Shown piece after piece: positions 30,102 to 39,578 of a stretch of DNA of 41,304 nucleotides. The translations under genes and the position numbers were made by a program. The notes under the pieces were generated by a model that saw nothing but the letters and a program-made list of their open reading frames with translations, was not told the origin of the DNA and searched no databases. Origin of the DNA: an uncultured Granulosicoccaceae bacterium (GTDB lineage: Bacteria; Pseudomonadota; Gammaproteobacteria; Granulosicoccales; Granulosicoccaceae); the NCBI GenBank assembly GCA_937923565.1, contig CALDTX010000171.1, positions 1 through 41,304 of the forward strand. The letters are read 5' to 3'. Numbering within the stretch: the first letter of the stretch is position 1; each line of letters begins with the position of its first letter.

Positions 30102-30177
30102 TGGCGTCCCCTAGGGGACTCGAACCCCTGTTACCGCCGTGAAAGGGCGGTGTCCTAGGCCACTAGACGAAGGGGAC
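30102..30177 (-). tRNA. tRNA-Glu (anticodon UUC), CCA encoded
   Basis: Minus strand GTCCCCTTCGTCTAGTGGCCTAGGACACCGCCCTTTCACGGCGGTAACAGGGGTTCGAGTCCCCTAGGGGACGCCA folds as a cloverleaf with anticodon TTC. Confidence 0.98.
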
Positions 30178-31305: not shown

Positions 31306-31767
31306 TTACAGTCCGCCGGTTGAATTCAGGTACAGCACCACCGCTAGCGCACTTAAGGTGATACCCACTAGCGACCACGGAAGTACCGCGCTTGAGGTTT
31401 GCTGATTAGCGATTCCCCATTCTTGTCGAATAGCTTCCGGAACCGTATCCACTTCTGCGCGGCGTTCAACTTCTGTTGTTTCCTGCACCTGACGAGTGTC
31501 ATGGTGCGATCGAGCGTCAACAAACCGTTGCCAACCCTGATCAGAATCCAGATCGAGTAACTCTTCCGGAATAAGCTCAGGAACTTGCGTTACCGGCTCC
31601 CAAAGCTCCCCGTCTTTACTGACCCTGTCGGTGTTCCTAACACGGCCCAGTAAAAGATAGCGACCCACTTCATTGGTTGAATAGGGACCTTGAACCCGTG
31701 ATCCCTTTTGTACATACCATTGCGGGTCATCAGTCACCATGGGTTTCATCACTACCGCTGAGTCCAT
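31306..31767 (-). CDS. GYF_2-like domain protein with C-terminal TM anchor
   Basis: WYVQKGSRVQGPYSTNEVGRYLLLGRVRNTDRVSKDGELWEPV; C-term WSLVGITLSALAVVLYL. Confidence 0.65.
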   Translation of the reverse strand: MDSAVVMKPMVTDDPQWYVQKGSRVQGPYSTNEVGRYLLLGRVRNTDRVSKDGELWEPVTQVPELIPEELLDLDSDQGWQRFVDARSHHDTRQVQETTEVERRAEVDTVPEAIRQEWGIANQQTSSAVLPWSLVGITLSALAVVLYLNSTGGL

Positions 31768-32480
31768 TCGGCTAAGCGGGCTTTCAACCGGACCAAAGCC
31801 TGCCCATGAATTTGGCAGACACGCGATTCACTCACACCCAGAATCTCACCAATTTCACGTAAGTTAAGATCTTCGTCGTAATACAACGACATCACCAGAC
31901 TTTCGCGTTCTGGCAAGTTCTTGATGGCTTCAGCTAACGCATCTCGAAACGACTGATATTCGATTTGCTCACCCGGTGTTGCTTCGTTGCTTTGTGGCAG
32001 CGCAATAGACTCACCTGTGTTTTCATCAGGTTGATCAAAGCTATAAATATGAGCGGCTGAACTTTCGGTAAGAATAAGGTGATATTGACGTAGCTCAAGA
32101 CCCAGCAGCTCTGCCACCTTGGCATCTTTGGCATCTCGACCCGTTGATTGTTCCAGATTACGCAGCACTTCAGCGGCTTCACGCGATTTACGGTGTACTG
32201 AACGTGGAGTCCAATCGGAACGACGAATTTCATCTAACATAGCGCCACGAACACGTATACCAGCATAAGTTTCAAAACTGGCACCCTGTGAAGGGTCATA
32301 GTGTCTGGAAGCTTCCAGTAATCCGATCATACCGGCTTGAATCAAATCCTCCGCCTGAACACTGGGCGGTAATCGATTCATCAGGTGAAACGCAATACGC
32401 TTTACCAGATTAGCGTTCGCAGCGACCAGTCCATCTGGATCAACCGTGACCACTTCGTTATACATTGCATGTGCATTCAT
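31752..32480 (-). CDS. fliA: Flagellar RNA polymerase sigma-28 factor FliA
   Basis: RIAFHLMNRLPPSVQAEDLIQAGMIGLLEASRHYDPSQGASFETYAGIRVRGAMLDEIRRSDWTPRSVHR; C-term YYDEDLNLREIGEILGVSESRVCQIHGQALVRLK. Confidence 0.96.
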   Translation of the reverse strand: MNAHAMYNEVVTVDPDGLVAANANLVKRIAFHLMNRLPPSVQAEDLIQAGMIGLLEASRHYDPSQGASFETYAGIRVRGAMLDEIRRSDWTPRSVHRKSREAAEVLRNLEQSTGRDAKDAKVAELLGLELRQYHLILTESSAAHIYSFDQPDENTGESIALPQSNEATPGEQIEYQSFRDALAEAIKNLPERESLVMSLYYDEDLNLREIGEILGVSESRVCQIHGQALVRLKARLAEWTQR

Positions 32481-32501
32481 TATTTTTTAAATCTCACCTT
32501 C

Positions 32502-33368
32502 TCACCGAGCTTCGCATTCGGCTTGTACCAGCCGTTCCACGAAAAATTCCACATGCCCCCCAGGACTCTGTGGACGAGGCCACTTTTCTACTCTGACAGC
32601 GAGCTTCTTTAGCGCTCTTGCTGACGCAGATCGTGGATAAGCTTCAACCACTACCTGACTTTCTCTTACTGCTTGTTGCAGCTGCCTGTCGTACGGAACA
32701 GAACCGCAATAATCGAGCAAAACATCGATATGCTTTTCGGCATAACGCGTTAACTTTGTGTACAGATCCAACCCTTGCTGGGAAGATTCAACTTGATTCG
32801 CAACGATGCGAAACCGTCGTACATCTCCAGTTTCATTCAGTGCGCGAATGGTCAAAAATGCATCCTGAATAGCTGCCGGCTCATCGCAAACCACCAACAG
32901 CACTTCGCGAGCAGCTCGGGTGAAGTTGAGCACTTCATCTGACAACCCACTAGCGACATCTATGATCATTGTGTCGGCATCAACACCCAGTTGGCTGAAG
33001 AGCGCAATGAGGTTCGCGTGTTGAATTTGTGACATGCGTGACATTTCCATGACGCCATTTGCGGAAGGCACCACCATCACGTTGGCCGGGCCATCCACAC
33101 AAACATCCGATAACAACTTCTCACCGGTCATCACATGCGCAATATTGAACGTCACATCCAAATTCATTAAACAAGCCACGTTACCCTTGGCAAAATCAGC
33201 GTCGAGTAAAATGACCTTCTTACCCATGTTGCTTAACGCACACGCAAGGTTTGCAGCAATATTGGTTTTCCCAATACCACCCTTTGCACCGGCTACCGCT
33301 ATGGTTTGAACCGGCTTTAGGCAGGCATCGTTAGCGAGCGCTAAAAGCTGACTCACGAGCGCACCCAC
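32502..33368 (-). CDS. fleN: MinD-like ATPase FleN/FlhG
   Basis: IAVAGAKGGIGKTNIAANLACALSNMGKKVILLDADFAKGNVACLMNL (deviant Walker A); adjacency to fliA. Confidence 0.9.
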   Translation of the reverse strand: MGALVSQLLALANDACLKPVQTIAVAGAKGGIGKTNIAANLACALSNMGKKVILLDADFAKGNVACLMNLDVTFNIAHVMTGEKLLSDVCVDGPANVMVVPSANGVMEMSRMSQIQHANLIALFSQLGVDADTMIIDVASGLSDEVLNFTRAAREVLLVVCDEPAAIQDAFLTIRALNETGDVRRFRIVANQVESSQQGLDLYTKLTRYAEKHIDVLLDYCGSVPYDRQLQQAVRESQVVVEAYPRSASARALKKLAVRVEKWPRPQSPGGHVEFFVERLVQAECEAR

Positions 33369-33628
33369 TTCTGCAAAATTTGCGCATTGAACAACAATGC
33401 ATCCACTCCATTAATCTTTTATAAAACCAGCAAGGTAGGCAGATGCACCGAGCCGAATACGTTGGCTTGGAATTTTGCAAGCATTGAACCACCGCCAGTG
33501 TGCACAGAGCACAACTAACGAGCGATCAATCGTGGGAACTCAGAATTGGGAAATATGCCTCAATTTGGATAGAGCAAAGAGACATAACAGCAGAATTGGC
33601 ACGTGACACATGCCTAATAATTGAGGTG

Positions 33629-33658
33629 ACCAGCAGCGCCTCAACGCTGCTGGTTTGT
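33629..33658. terminator. Perfect 10-bp inverted repeat just downstream of fleQ; candidate terminator or RNA hairpin
   Basis: ACCAGCAGCG-CCTCAA-CGCTGCTGGT, followed on + by TTGTT; about 11 nt after the fleQ stop on - without a U tract there. Confidence 0.4.
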
Positions 33659-33668
33659 TCACTAACGC

Positions 33669-35120
33669 TTAAGAGACTTCTTCAGGACGCTGAATATTGT
33701 ACTTACGCATTTTCTCAACCAGTGTAGTACGACGTATCTTCAAACGATTGGCGGCATGCGCCACAACACCGGAACATTCGTCAAGCGCTTGCTCTATTAA
33801 ACTGATTTCGATATCCGTTAGATGCTGTTTTAGGTCGATGCCATCTCTGGGCAGTCGAGGCTTATCGTTCAGCGATACGTTGGTTACGCCTTGCACTAAC
33901 TCCATCGCTGGCGCACTGTCATCGCTGTTAAGCGACTGTGAACGACCATGCGGCGCCATCTTTGGTGGTAGATCACCGACATCAACAACACCATAAGGAT
34001 GCAGAATAGTCATTCGCTCCATTAGGTTAGCAAGTTCCCGCACATTACCCGGCCAGTCATAGTTGCATAACGCCATCATCGCAGCAGGTGTTAACCGAAC
34101 CGACGATTTCTTCTCGTGTTCCAGGCGCGTTATTAACTCGTTTACCAATAACGGCAGATCTTCCGCTCTGGAGCTTAACGGAGGCATCTCAACGGGAAAT
34201 ACATTGAGTCGATAGTATAAATCTTCGCGGAACGTACCCTCTTCAATGAGTGTTTCAAGGTTTCTGTGTGTTGCAGCAACCAAACGAACATCGCTTTTAA
34301 TGGTTTTATTACTGCCTACCCGTTCAAACGAGCGTTCCTGGATAACGCGCAATAGCTTCACTTGCATTGGCAATGGCATGTCACCAATTTCATCAAGAAA
34401 TATAGTGCCGCCCTCTGCCAGCTCAAAACGTCCTTCGCGCGCGCCTACGGCACCGGTAAAGGAACCTTTTTCATGTCCAAACAGTTCACTTTCCAAAAGC
34501 TCACTGGGAATTGCGCCACAGTTAATGGGCACAAACGGTTTGTTTCTGCGGTTTGAATAATAGTGAATGTTACGCGCAACAACCTCTTTACCCGTACCTG
34601 ATTCACCCAATATCAGCACTGTTGCCTCAGTTGGCGCAACCTGGTCTACCATTTTGCGCACCCTGACAATGGCGCGGCTATTACCCACCAAGCTTCTGAA
34701 TAACTCAGGGTTCTGCGTGCCCTCTTTCGACGGTGTTGTGTTTGCTGTACCCCGAACATCGGCGCGATGCAGTAAGTCAGACAACAGGCCATAACGAATA
34801 TCAGACTTCAAACAACCGATAAAGGTGCTTTCAAGCTCAGGCTGACTGATATCCGCAGGCTGATCGCCCAACATGATAATCATTGGTGGGCAGTTCTCAT
34901 GCTTGGCTTTAAGTTTATTGGCCCAATCCACTATGCCATGAAAATTGGCAACCAAAATAGCCTGATAGACACCAACATCACCCAAGCTATCCAATAGCTC
35001 TGGAGAACTGAGTATTTTTGACTCTTGATCAATAAACTCAAGCTGATGACTTAGCCGCAACGAGTTGTCAGCATTGGCATCGATAATCAGTATCTTGCGT
35101 GTTTCTTTTTTCGTGCTCAT
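33669..35120 (-). CDS. fleQ: Sigma-54-dependent flagellar master regulator FleQ/FlrA
   Basis: AAA+ domain (LILGESGTGKEVVARNIHYYSNRRNKPFVPINCGAIP, GHEKGSFTGAVGAREGRFELAEGGTIFLDEIGDMPLPMQVKLLRVIQERSFERVGS) with degenerate receiver-like N-terminus and Fis-type HTH; flanked by fleN/fliA. Confidence 0.92.
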   Translation of the reverse strand: MSTKKETRKILIIDANADNSLRLSHQLEFIDQESKILSSPELLDSLGDVGVYQAILVANFHGIVDWANKLKAKHENCPPMIIMLGDQPADISQPELESTFIGCLKSDIRYGLLSDLLHRADVRGTANTTPSKEGTQNPELFRSLVGNSRAIVRVRKMVDQVAPTEATVLILGESGTGKEVVARNIHYYSNRRNKPFVPINCGAIPSELLESELFGHEKGSFTGAVGAREGRFELAEGGTIFLDEIGDMPLPMQVKLLRVIQERSFERVGSNKTIKSDVRLVAATHRNLETLIEEGTFREDLYYRLNVFPVEMPPLSSRAEDLPLLVNELITRLEHEKKSSVRLTPAAMMALCNYDWPGNVRELANLMERMTILHPYGVVDVGDLPPKMAPHGRSQSLNSDDSAPAMELVQGVTNVSLNDKPRLPRDGIDLKQHLTDIEISLIEQALDECSGVVAHAANRLKIRRTTLVEKMRKYNIQRPEEVS

Positions 35121-36801: not shown

Positions 36802-37260
36802 TTAAGCGACTTGCGTTTTCTGCTCAACTTTCTCGCCGGGAAACGCATTAACCGGGATTCTGCGTGGCTTCATTGCTTCTGGAATTTCCTTCACCAGCGA
36901 AATATGTAACAAGCCATTTTCCATTTGCGCATTCACCACTTCGACGTGATCCGCGAGGTTAAACTTGCGCTCAAAAGACCGACTGGCAATGCCGCGATGC
37001 AAATACCGTGAATCTTTCTTTTGATCTTCCTTCTTACCACGTACGGTTAAAACGCCTTTCTCAACCTGAACATCTAATTCGTTTTCTTGAAAACCTGCAA
37101 CCGCTAACGTGATCGCGTATTTGTTTTCATCCATTAGCTCTATGTCGTACGGAGGGTAGCCACCGGTTTGCCGCTCAGCATTAAATGCCGCGTCTAATAA
37201 TGAACCAAAGCGGTCATAGCCAACAGTGTTTGCATAGAGTGGGGTTAAATCGAGTTTCAT
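36802..37260 (-). CDS. Small heat shock protein, Hsp20/IbpA family
   Basis: PPYDIELMDENKYAITLAVAGFQENELDVQVEKGVLTVRGKK...YLHRGIASRSFERKFNLADHVEVVNAQMENGLLHISLVKEIPE. Confidence 0.96.
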   Translation of the reverse strand: MKLDLTPLYANTVGYDRFGSLLDAAFNAERQTGGYPPYDIELMDENKYAITLAVAGFQENELDVQVEKGVLTVRGKKEDQKKDSRYLHRGIASRSFERKFNLADHVEVVNAQMENGLLHISLVKEIPEAMKPRRIPVNAFPGEKVEQKTQVA

Positions 37261-37335
37261 TTTGTATTCTCCTAAAGAAGCAATATAAAGTTGTTAATTT
37301 CTATACCCGGTTCTCTCAGAGACCCCAGGTACAAA
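37261..37335 (-). promoter_or_regulatory. hsp20 5' leader; ROSE-like RNA thermometer candidate
   Basis: Minus strand ...UUGCU-UCUUU-AGGAG..8 nt..AUG: UUGCU (37279-37283) can pair with AGGA of the SD (37270-37273) across a 5-nt loop; upstream GGUCUC-UGA-GAG(A)ACC hairpin. Confidence 0.5.
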
Positions 37336-37341
37336 AGAAGA

Positions 37342-37367
37342 ATGGGGTTTTGGTTTTCTTTTTCAAG
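37342..37367 (-). promoter_or_regulatory. Sigma-32 (RpoH) heat-shock promoter of hsp20
   Basis: Minus strand CTTGAAA - 13 nt - CCCCAT. Confidence 0.85.
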
Positions 37368-37529: not shown

Positions 37530-39578
37530 CTAGCGACGAAACAAACCACTGTCTTCATCGGCGTGCAAGCCGCGAGCCGCCAAATGCCCTGAGTAAACTG
37601 CTGCAGCCACCGTAGACGGCGCAAGACAATCCCCTACAGCTAATAGCGTTCGTACGCTGTGGTTTGCATCACCGCTCGTTTTATTTTGCAGAGATTCATA
37701 CAGTGCGTTATTCGGCGCGCGTGAGCTCACCATGATGACCGCGTCTGCATTTAACGTTGACTTATCATTACTGTAAACACATTCCAGTACAACGCCACCG
37801 GCAGTGACATCAGATAAGCCCTTACTGGTATGAACAACAACACCTGAGCGCAACAACAAACGCTGAATTTTGTGTTGCTCCAACGTATGTTCAGTCCATG
37901 CTGACACAACACCTGCTGGCGTAACCAAACTAACGCTACAGCCTTGTGCGCAAAGCTGTTCAGCAATAACACCACCCATGTAGTAGTGATCGTCATCGTA
38001 CACAACCACGTGCCCAGCCAACGTGGCGTTGCTGAATACATCTTCAGGGGTATAACACGGTATTGCGTTGTCATCCACATTAACACCCGTAGGGTATTGC
38101 CGACCACGGCCATCGTTAAGCCAGTGCGAACCTGTGGCTGTAAACACATGGTCAATCGATGCATCGATCACGTCGTCGGCACTAAGGTGATTATCCAGTA
38201 ACAATTCAACTTGGGTTGAGGTGATTAACTGTTGATATCGATAATCACGCACTCTGATATAACTTGAAAGTCCGGGTAATTGCGATTCAAATAAAAGACG
38301 ACCACCGGTTTCTTTTTTTGATTCAGCCAACACCACGTTATAACCACGGCGGGTTAGTTGCAGTGCGCACTCCAAACCCGACGGGCCTGCTCCTATAACT
38401 AATGCTGTTTCATTAGTGTGGATAGACGGCGGGCTAATTTCGGGATGCCATCCGCGCTTCCATTCCTCGCCCATGGTTGGGTTTTGTGTGCAACGAATAG
38501 GCGCTACAACGTTATCGGAAGACACACAGATATTACAGCCTATGCACTCTCTTATAGATTCAATGTCATTGTTACGTATTTTATTGGGTAAAAACGGATC
38601 GGCTATGGATGGTCTTGCAGCGCCAATAAAATCGAGAACACCCCGTTTGATTTGCGACACCATGGCATTTGGGGACGTAAATCGGCCAACGCCCACTACC
38701 GGTTGTTTAACAATTGACTTAACAAACGCTGTGTACTTTTCCTGATACCCTTCATTAGGTTCAAAGCGAGCGGTTGCCGAATCGTTATCCCAACCACTGA
38801 TGTTAACGTCCCAAAGGTCGGGAATATCGGCCAACATTTCTACCAGCTGGGCACCTTCATCCTGTGCCTGCAAGCCAGCATCGCCCATCAATTCATCCAC
38901 GGCCATGCGCAGTGCCACGGCACAGCTGTCGCCGATGGCTTCTTTGACATCCATCAGTGTTTCTTTTAGTAACCGTGCACGGTTTTCCAGTGAGCCGCCA
39001 TAGGCATCCAGACGATCGTTATAGCGAGGCAACAGAAAATGCATTAGCGTGGCCATGTTGTGCCCGGCGTACACATAGATAATGTCGTAGCCTGCCTTTT
39101 TCGAACGCAGTGCCGCGTCGACATGCCATTGCTTAAAGTTTTTTATATCCGTCAGATTCATCGCTCGCGCTTGCACCGGATGGTATAAATCGACTGGCCG
39201 GTGCGCCGGACCCATCGGAGCCACACGGCTTGCCAAATTAGCGGCATGTTGTCCGTTGTGCACCAGCTCAATACCCGCCAAAGCACCATGTTGATGAACC
39301 GCATCGGTCATGTCTCGGTGCATAGGCACGTCGTTGTCATCCCATAAACGGCCTTCCAGATAAGGCGTTAGCTCGGAGCTTGGGTGTATTTCAACCTCTT
39401 GGGTACAAACCACCCCCCAACCGCCTTCTGCCTTCATCGCGCGCAGCGCAACTTCTGCCTTCGGATGGCCATGACCCAAGCCCGTACAGTGCGGTACTTG
39501 ATAGAAGCGGTTTTTAGCCGTTACCGGCCCTATAGCCAGAGGCTCAAAAAGGCAGGCATAAGGATTGTTGGGCAGCAT
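37530..39578 (-). CDS. Trimethylamine/dimethylamine dehydrogenase-like FMN/[4Fe-4S] flavoprotein
   Basis: NRFYQVPHCTGLGHGHP (Cys equivalent to 6-S-cysteinyl-FMN Cys of TMADH), YGGSLENRARLLKETL, GAARPSIADPFLPNKI, ECIGCNICVSSDNVVAPIRCTQNPTMGEEWKRGWHPE, then dinucleotide-binding GAGPSGLECALQL. Confidence 0.87.
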   Translation of the reverse strand: MLPNNPYACLFEPLAIGPVTAKNRFYQVPHCTGLGHGHPKAEVALRAMKAEGGWGVVCTQEVEIHPSSELTPYLEGRLWDDNDVPMHRDMTDAVHQHGALAGIELVHNGQHAANLASRVAPMGPAHRPVDLYHPVQARAMNLTDIKNFKQWHVDAALRSKKAGYDIIYVYAGHNMATLMHFLLPRYNDRLDAYGGSLENRARLLKETLMDVKEAIGDSCAVALRMAVDELMGDAGLQAQDEGAQLVEMLADIPDLWDVNISGWDNDSATARFEPNEGYQEKYTAFVKSIVKQPVVGVGRFTSPNAMVSQIKRGVLDFIGAARPSIADPFLPNKIRNNDIESIRECIGCNICVSSDNVVAPIRCTQNPTMGEEWKRGWHPEISPPSIHTNETALVIGAGPSGLECALQLTRRGYNVVLAESKKETGGRLLFESQLPGLSSYIRVRDYRYQQLITSTQVELLLDNHLSADDVIDASIDHVFTATGSHWLNDGRGRQYPTGVNVDDNAIPCYTPEDVFSNATLAGHVVVYDDDHYYMGGVIAEQLCAQGCSVSLVTPAGVVSAWTEHTLEQHKIQRLLLRSGVVVHTSKGLSDVTAGGVVLECVYSNDKSTLNADAVIMVSSRAPNNALYESLQNKTSGDANHSVRTLLAVGDCLAPSTVAAAVYSGHLAARGLHADEDSGLFRR

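Follow-up and report, generated by a model that had tools for sequence, protein, structure and literature searches.

A probable two-hairpin ROSE-like RNA thermometer behind a sigma-32 promoter at an ibpA-type hsp20 gene of a marine Granulosicoccaceae bacterium

Background

The closest described counterpart of the leader reported here is that of Pseudomonas ibpA, a two-hairpin, sigma-32-driven leader of about 62 nt in which, by experiment, hairpin II melts with heat and hairpin I does not, and in which thermal control needs no more than hairpin II (PMC3669281). According to the same paper, what the upstream hairpins of ROSE elements do is incompletely understood (PMC3669281). The E. coli ibpA leader belongs to the Rfam family ROSE_2 (RF01832); its Shine-Dalgarno (SD) hairpin carries a bulged G (CUC[G]CUG/CAGGAG) and is itself preceded by a bulged-G hairpin (CCU[G]UCC/GGAAGG); the ROSE_2 consensus already draws one upstream bulge in this species. 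The IbpA protein also acts on leaders of this kind: it binds its own 5' UTR and represses its translation, requires R93 for this, together with R97, K98 and Y34, and seems to favour structured RNAs such as thermometers, while the RNA feature that it binds was not established in that work (PMC10474464). ROSE-like and ROSE-G motifs that lie before ABC transporter genes share with our leader a UUGCU-type motif and a bulged G set against the SD, but precede other genes and, in the case of ROSE-G, have two opposed bulged Gs (PMC11342760, PMC12857270).

Here we describe a leader within a contiguous stretch of 41 kb (41,304 nt; hereafter the window) from the 3.2-Mb, 75% complete assembly of a marine Granulosicoccaceae bacterium, whose order is represented by this one family among the genomes searched. 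The leader resembles the Pseudomonas thermometer in having a sigma-32 promoter, a stable hairpin I, an ibpA-type gene and an SD hairpin II that contains both U(U/C)GCU and a bulged G (PMC3669281). It differs from that system in the partner of UUGCU, which is AGAA and not AGGA (U-A for U-G), in having its SD, GGAG, covered by an added CUUC within an AU-rich stem, and in a weaker predicted energy for hairpin II (-2.3 kcal/mol at 37 °C, where published values for Pseudomonas lie between -4.1 and -7.6; PMC3669281). With E. coli it has in common an SD hairpin whose bulged G stands in an identical register, preceded by another bulged-G hairpin, whereas the E. coli leader has an additional 5' hairpin and scores 100 bits against ROSE_2, a model for which neither the window nor the family gave any match above the cut-off. 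The likeness to the IbpA self-repression system (PMC10474464) extends to the gene, the kind of leader and the critical residues.

Results and discussion

The locus and its promoter

On the minus strand, a leader of about 75 nt separates a sigma-32 promoter from an IbpA-type hsp20 gene:

36802-37260, minus strand: hsp20 gene for an IbpA-type small heat shock protein of 152 aa, with its ATG at 37260
37269-37272, minus strand: Shine-Dalgarno GGAG, 8 nt from the ATG and paired with CUUC at 37280-37277 (sequence, folding)
37279-37283, minus strand: UUGCU, the ROSE core motif, with its partner AGAA at 37270-37267 (alignment, pairing)
37265-37285, minus strand: hairpin II, UAUU[G37281]CUUC-UUUA-GGAGAAUA, 8 bp with a single bulged G (pairing, covariation, energy)
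37305-37330, minus strand: hairpin I core, ACCUGG-(GG)-UCUC-UGA-GAGA-(A)-CCGGGU (folding, compensatory changes, wide conservation)
37323, minus strand: invariant G in the 2x1 internal loop of hairpin I (alignment)
37333-37336, minus strand: presumed transcription start region, from the promoter position
37342-37347, minus strand: sigma-32 -10 element CCCCAT (sequence, RpoH in the genome)
37348-37360, minus strand: 13-nt promoter spacer (sequence)
37361-37367, minus strand: sigma-32 -35 element CTTGAAA (sequence, rarity of the pattern, conservation)

The product of the reading frame at 36802-37260 scored 83.5 bits against PF00011 (Hsp20), and its best NCBIfam match was IbpA, at 157 bits and thus under that model's cut-off of 212. 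It keeps the equivalents of E. coli Y34, R93, R97 and K98, the residues that mark IbpA proteins with self-repressing leaders. Directly upstream of the leader and on the same strand is a gene for an Old-yellow-enzyme-type FMN/FAD oxidoreductase (37530-39578), and the promoter sits within the gap between this gene and hsp20. Elsewhere in the window, a tRNA gene on the minus strand (30105-30177) is the sole Rfam match, and a flagellar-looking minus-strand cluster (31752-35120) encodes a FleQ-like sigma-54 activator (33669-35120), a ParA/MinD-type ATPase (32502-33368) and a sigma-70-family protein (31752-32480) that matches the RpoH model weakly and may be FliA.

A near-ideal RpoH promoter, CTTGAAA-N13-CCCCAT, had been noted from the sequence alone, and as a predicted promoter it is well supported. 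The locus carries the CTTGAAA-N13-14-CCCCAT arrangement that identifies members of the sigma-32 regulon, and CTTGAA-N13-15-CCCCAT occurs once in the window against an expectation of 0.03. A looser TTGAA form has two sites in the 3.2-Mb genome (none for the reversed pattern), the second of which was discarded as it lies in coding sequence, inside the reading frame of an ABC-transporter ATPase. A gene for RpoH itself is present at another place in the genome (TIGR02392 at 388 bits, above the cut-off). The -35 element is also conserved: 40 of 42 family leaders have CTTGAA, TTGAAA or CTTGAG where it is expected, and among 117 diverse ibpA leaders 98 carry an element of the TTGAA type (8 by base shuffling).

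Structure of the leader

The earlier note had the leader ending in UUGCU-UCUUU-AGGAG, and this sequence is indeed present on the minus strand (UUGCU at 37283-37279, UCUUU at 37278-37274 and AGGAG at 37273-37269). The pairing proposed for it, UUGCU with the AGGA at 37273-37270, did not survive: its predicted energy is +2.6 kcal/mol at 25 °C, compared with -4.4 for the bulged-G stem, 62% of cells are paired, and the innermost pair is kept in 5 of 26. The true partner, AGAA, lies two to three bases beyond. A two-nucleotide register shift relative to the canonical ROSE element was considered after the genus alignment and then abandoned: diverse relatives have GGAGGAUA as the partner, and UU[G]CU/AGGA is therefore in the same register, with the window lineage simply having AGAA. 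This lineage, which has AGAA where most leaders have AGGA, uses the GGAG just upstream as its SD, covered by CUUC. Folding also allows alternative registers for hairpin II.

Hairpin II is the more uniform of the two hairpins. The block UAUUGCUUC...GGAGAAUA before the ATG, which forms the 8 bp with one bulged G, is nearly invariant in the 27 genus leaders, where hairpin II has hardly any variation and 98% of cells are paired. The bulged-G SD hairpin is kept in 27 of 27 genus leaders and in 15 other family leaders. Variation appears outside the genus, where, of 49 leaders, 29 have U-A, 12 U-G and 8 C-G as the ROSE-core pair next to the bulge, in an alignment that was fitted to the structure and is biased towards it. 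Across 117 diverse leaders, U(U/C)GCU occurs in 105, with AGGA as its partner in 95 and AGAA in 9. Within the window, the full pattern TATTGCTTC-N2-6-GGAGAATA occurs once against 0.00 expected. We discarded UUGCU near GGAG as stand-alone evidence, since genome-wide there are 122 such sites and 106 for the reversed pattern, which makes this combination uninformative by itself.

Several leaders depart from this scheme. In one family leader (G012; L029:816-893) the anti-SD block occurs twice in tandem (UUAUUGCUUCAAUAUUGCUUC) before the SD, which suggests a route by which extra hairpins of this type could arise. Two genus members (L021 and L024) have a diverged SD region (UAUUGCUC...GAGAAGG) in which the bulged-G core is kept and GGAG is lost. 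The Psychromonas ibpA leaders L105, L107 and L110 are without U(U/C)GCU before the SD (UUUACUC...AAGGAGAAC), and in these cold-adapted relatives the ROSE core may have been replaced.

The upstream hairpin, which the earlier note had also mentioned, is predicted by folding and strongly backed by covariation. Compensatory changes within the genus affect 8 of its 12 pairs, in the lower stem, which can be extended to 37336/37299. The apex GUCUC...AGA is invariant in the genus, while the 2x1 internal loop takes the forms GG/G (11), GG/A (7), UG/A (4), UG/G (3) and others (2). Hairpin I is GC-rich, with a predicted energy of -14 to -10 kcal/mol over 25-42 °C and predicted stability to 50 °C. It is under strong structural selection, and would have a role in folding, in mRNA stability or in IbpA binding.

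Conservation and covariance models

All 27 genus relatives conserve the leader, and it can be recognised throughout the family. In the genus alignment, 94.6% of cells are paired in the two-hairpin structure (84% in shuffles and 45-49% in slid controls), its covariation score is 0.332 versus 0.144, and double changes are found in 49 cells versus 15 in shuffles; the z-score from single-sequence folding is modest (-1.6). MAFFT and RNAalifold applied to a mixed family alignment recovered hairpin II alone, because hairpin I was misaligned there.

Run on the window, a covariance model built from the 49 leaders outside the genus (R2) matched this leader and nothing else (67 bits, E 1.1e-11); the whole 3.2-Mb genome gave the same single match (E 9e-10). 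Among 275 genomes of the class it gave 5 matches, each just upstream of a separately found ibpA homologue. R2 also detected ibpA leaders on Vibrio plasmids and, with weak scores, in rhizobia, and did not match other hsp20 paralogues in the family (best 13 bits, E 0.57). Rfam's own models behaved differently: the leader fell below the gathering cut-offs of ROSE_2 (RF01832) and ROSE (RF00435), the ROSE models had no match in the window and none over the cut-off in 48 family genomes, and scans of 12 family and 8 alphaproteobacterial leaders gave no ROSE match. An empty covariance-model search, alongside a lack of temperature-dependent opening, had been named in advance as counting against a thermometer, and for Rfam's models the first of these is the outcome; they also miss most true relatives, and R2 detects the element. 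The idea of a sigma-32 promoter joined to a ROSE-like leader before hsp20 holds in its main part, on conservation, covariation, R2 and RpoH, while the particular pairing and the Rfam match do not.

That the locus amounts to an ordinary heat-shock promoter, an unstructured SD and a chance UUGCU is very improbable and already contradicted by the comparative data, since the 20-nt block is near-invariant through a genus at 73-86% protein identity and covariation and detection by an independent model add to this, even if the genome has many cases of UUGCU near GGAG and Rfam has no match.

A probable thermometer and its presumed mechanism

The leader is very probably a short two-hairpin ROSE-like RNA thermometer behind a sigma-32 promoter, which would place an IbpA-type chaperone under two layers of heat control; this assessment draws on sequence, conservation, covariation and predicted energies. 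It has the features by which ROSE-like elements are recognised, with U(U/C)GCU in a 3'-proximal hairpin that pairs imperfectly around the SD and contains a bulged G, in the leader of a small heat shock gene of Proteobacteria with two to four hairpins. Its architecture and covariation make it the same kind of leader as the two-hairpin thermometer of Pseudomonas, and it is a further case of an already known type of switch, with the pairing corrected.

Heat would raise RpoH activity and, with it, transcription from this promoter. In the resulting transcript, hairpin I would stand at or near the 5' end and is predicted to be stable at all relevant temperatures. At low temperature the AU-rich 8-bp stem of hairpin II, weakened by its bulged G, would hold, with CUUC covering GGAG; on warming it would weaken and free the SD. 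For hairpin II, a predicted -4.4 kcal/mol at 25 °C rises to -1.4 at 42 °C. Use of the promoter, melting of the hairpin and translational control are presumed on these grounds. In partition functions computed over the whole leader of the window, the SD has little accessibility and hardly changes between 5 and 48 °C, although some relatives do open on warming. This near-flat response counts as a weakness, either of the prediction or of the energies in the model.

Bulged G in the upstream hairpins of ibpA leaders

In 80 named ibpA leaders of alpha-, beta- and gammaproteobacteria, minimum-energy folds of the region from -120 to -25, which leave out the SD hairpin, had a single 5'-side base bulged in 72 hairpins, and in 68 of these the bulge was a G; shuffles gave 7.8 such hairpins, 1.8 with G. 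Control regions (two coding, one far upstream) were near shuffle level and had almost no bulged G. With the criterion carried over unchanged to 37 further leaders, a G-bulge hairpin was found in 21 (0.45 by shuffling), and the 2x1 loops were NG/R in 8 of 8. Once the leaders were clustered at 70% identity, 109 remained, of which 85 had a bulged-G hairpin upstream of the SD hairpin, where shuffles gave 2.0 with a largest value of 7, and 18 had at least two. The strand that follows the bulged G is mostly pyrimidine (UCUC, CUC, CC, UCU, UCC), as in the SD hairpin. A bulged G elsewhere than opposite the SD is not discussed in PMC3669281, PMC9450479, PMC11342760 or PMC12857270.

One explanation would make hairpin I a mere 5' stabiliser and folding insulator, with a bulged G retained through shared ancestry. 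It is a reasonable candidate, although we would not bet on it: mRNA stabilisation or a folding aid was proposed by the Pseudomonas authors (PMC3669281) and the hairpin is predicted to be stable at all temperatures, yet a stabiliser alone would need no bulge. Moreover, the lower and upper stems vary freely with compensation while the bulge stays G (92 of 100 pooled single-base bulges), and 3'-side bulges are not enriched (4 in the 80 leaders and 1 in the further set).

A second explanation, to which we give rather less credence, is that the leader's main job is IbpA binding, in which bulged-G hairpins would be recognised by IbpA oligomers, which would repress their own translation until aggregates titrate them away. 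The IbpA proteins of E. coli, Cedecea and Vibrio bind their own 5' UTR and repress translation via R93 and its neighbours (PMC10474464), R93 and nearby residues are conserved in the window protein, the same bulged-G geometry recurs upstream in those 85 of 109 non-redundant leaders, and the predicted accessibility of the window SD is nearly independent of temperature. Against IbpA binding as the main job, the Pseudomonas SD hairpin by itself suffices for thermal control (PMC3669281). The two functions are not mutually exclusive, and hairpin I as an IbpA site is hypothetical; bulged-G hairpins as the feature that IbpA recognises would fit as a hypothesis.

A broader and speculative proposal, which we consider rather unlikely, is that ibpA leaders across alpha-, beta- and gammaproteobacteria may be arrays of equivalent bulged-G hairpins, each unit consisting of a G, a pyrimidine-rich strand, a loop of 3-5 nt and a purine-rich strand. 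The SD would be hidden by the last hairpin, and any hairpin before it would serve as a protein recognition site, likeliest for IbpA oligomers.

Significance

With these results, ROSE-like leaders that look functional are recorded from a further lineage, probably Granulosicoccus, which the Rfam models miss, and R2 recognises many such leaders. The main interest of the finding is that the upstream hairpin has conserved its bulged G, which offers a single-base test both for the role of these hairpins and for the feature bound by IbpA. If the array proposal is true, a single leader would read temperature as well as chaperone occupancy.
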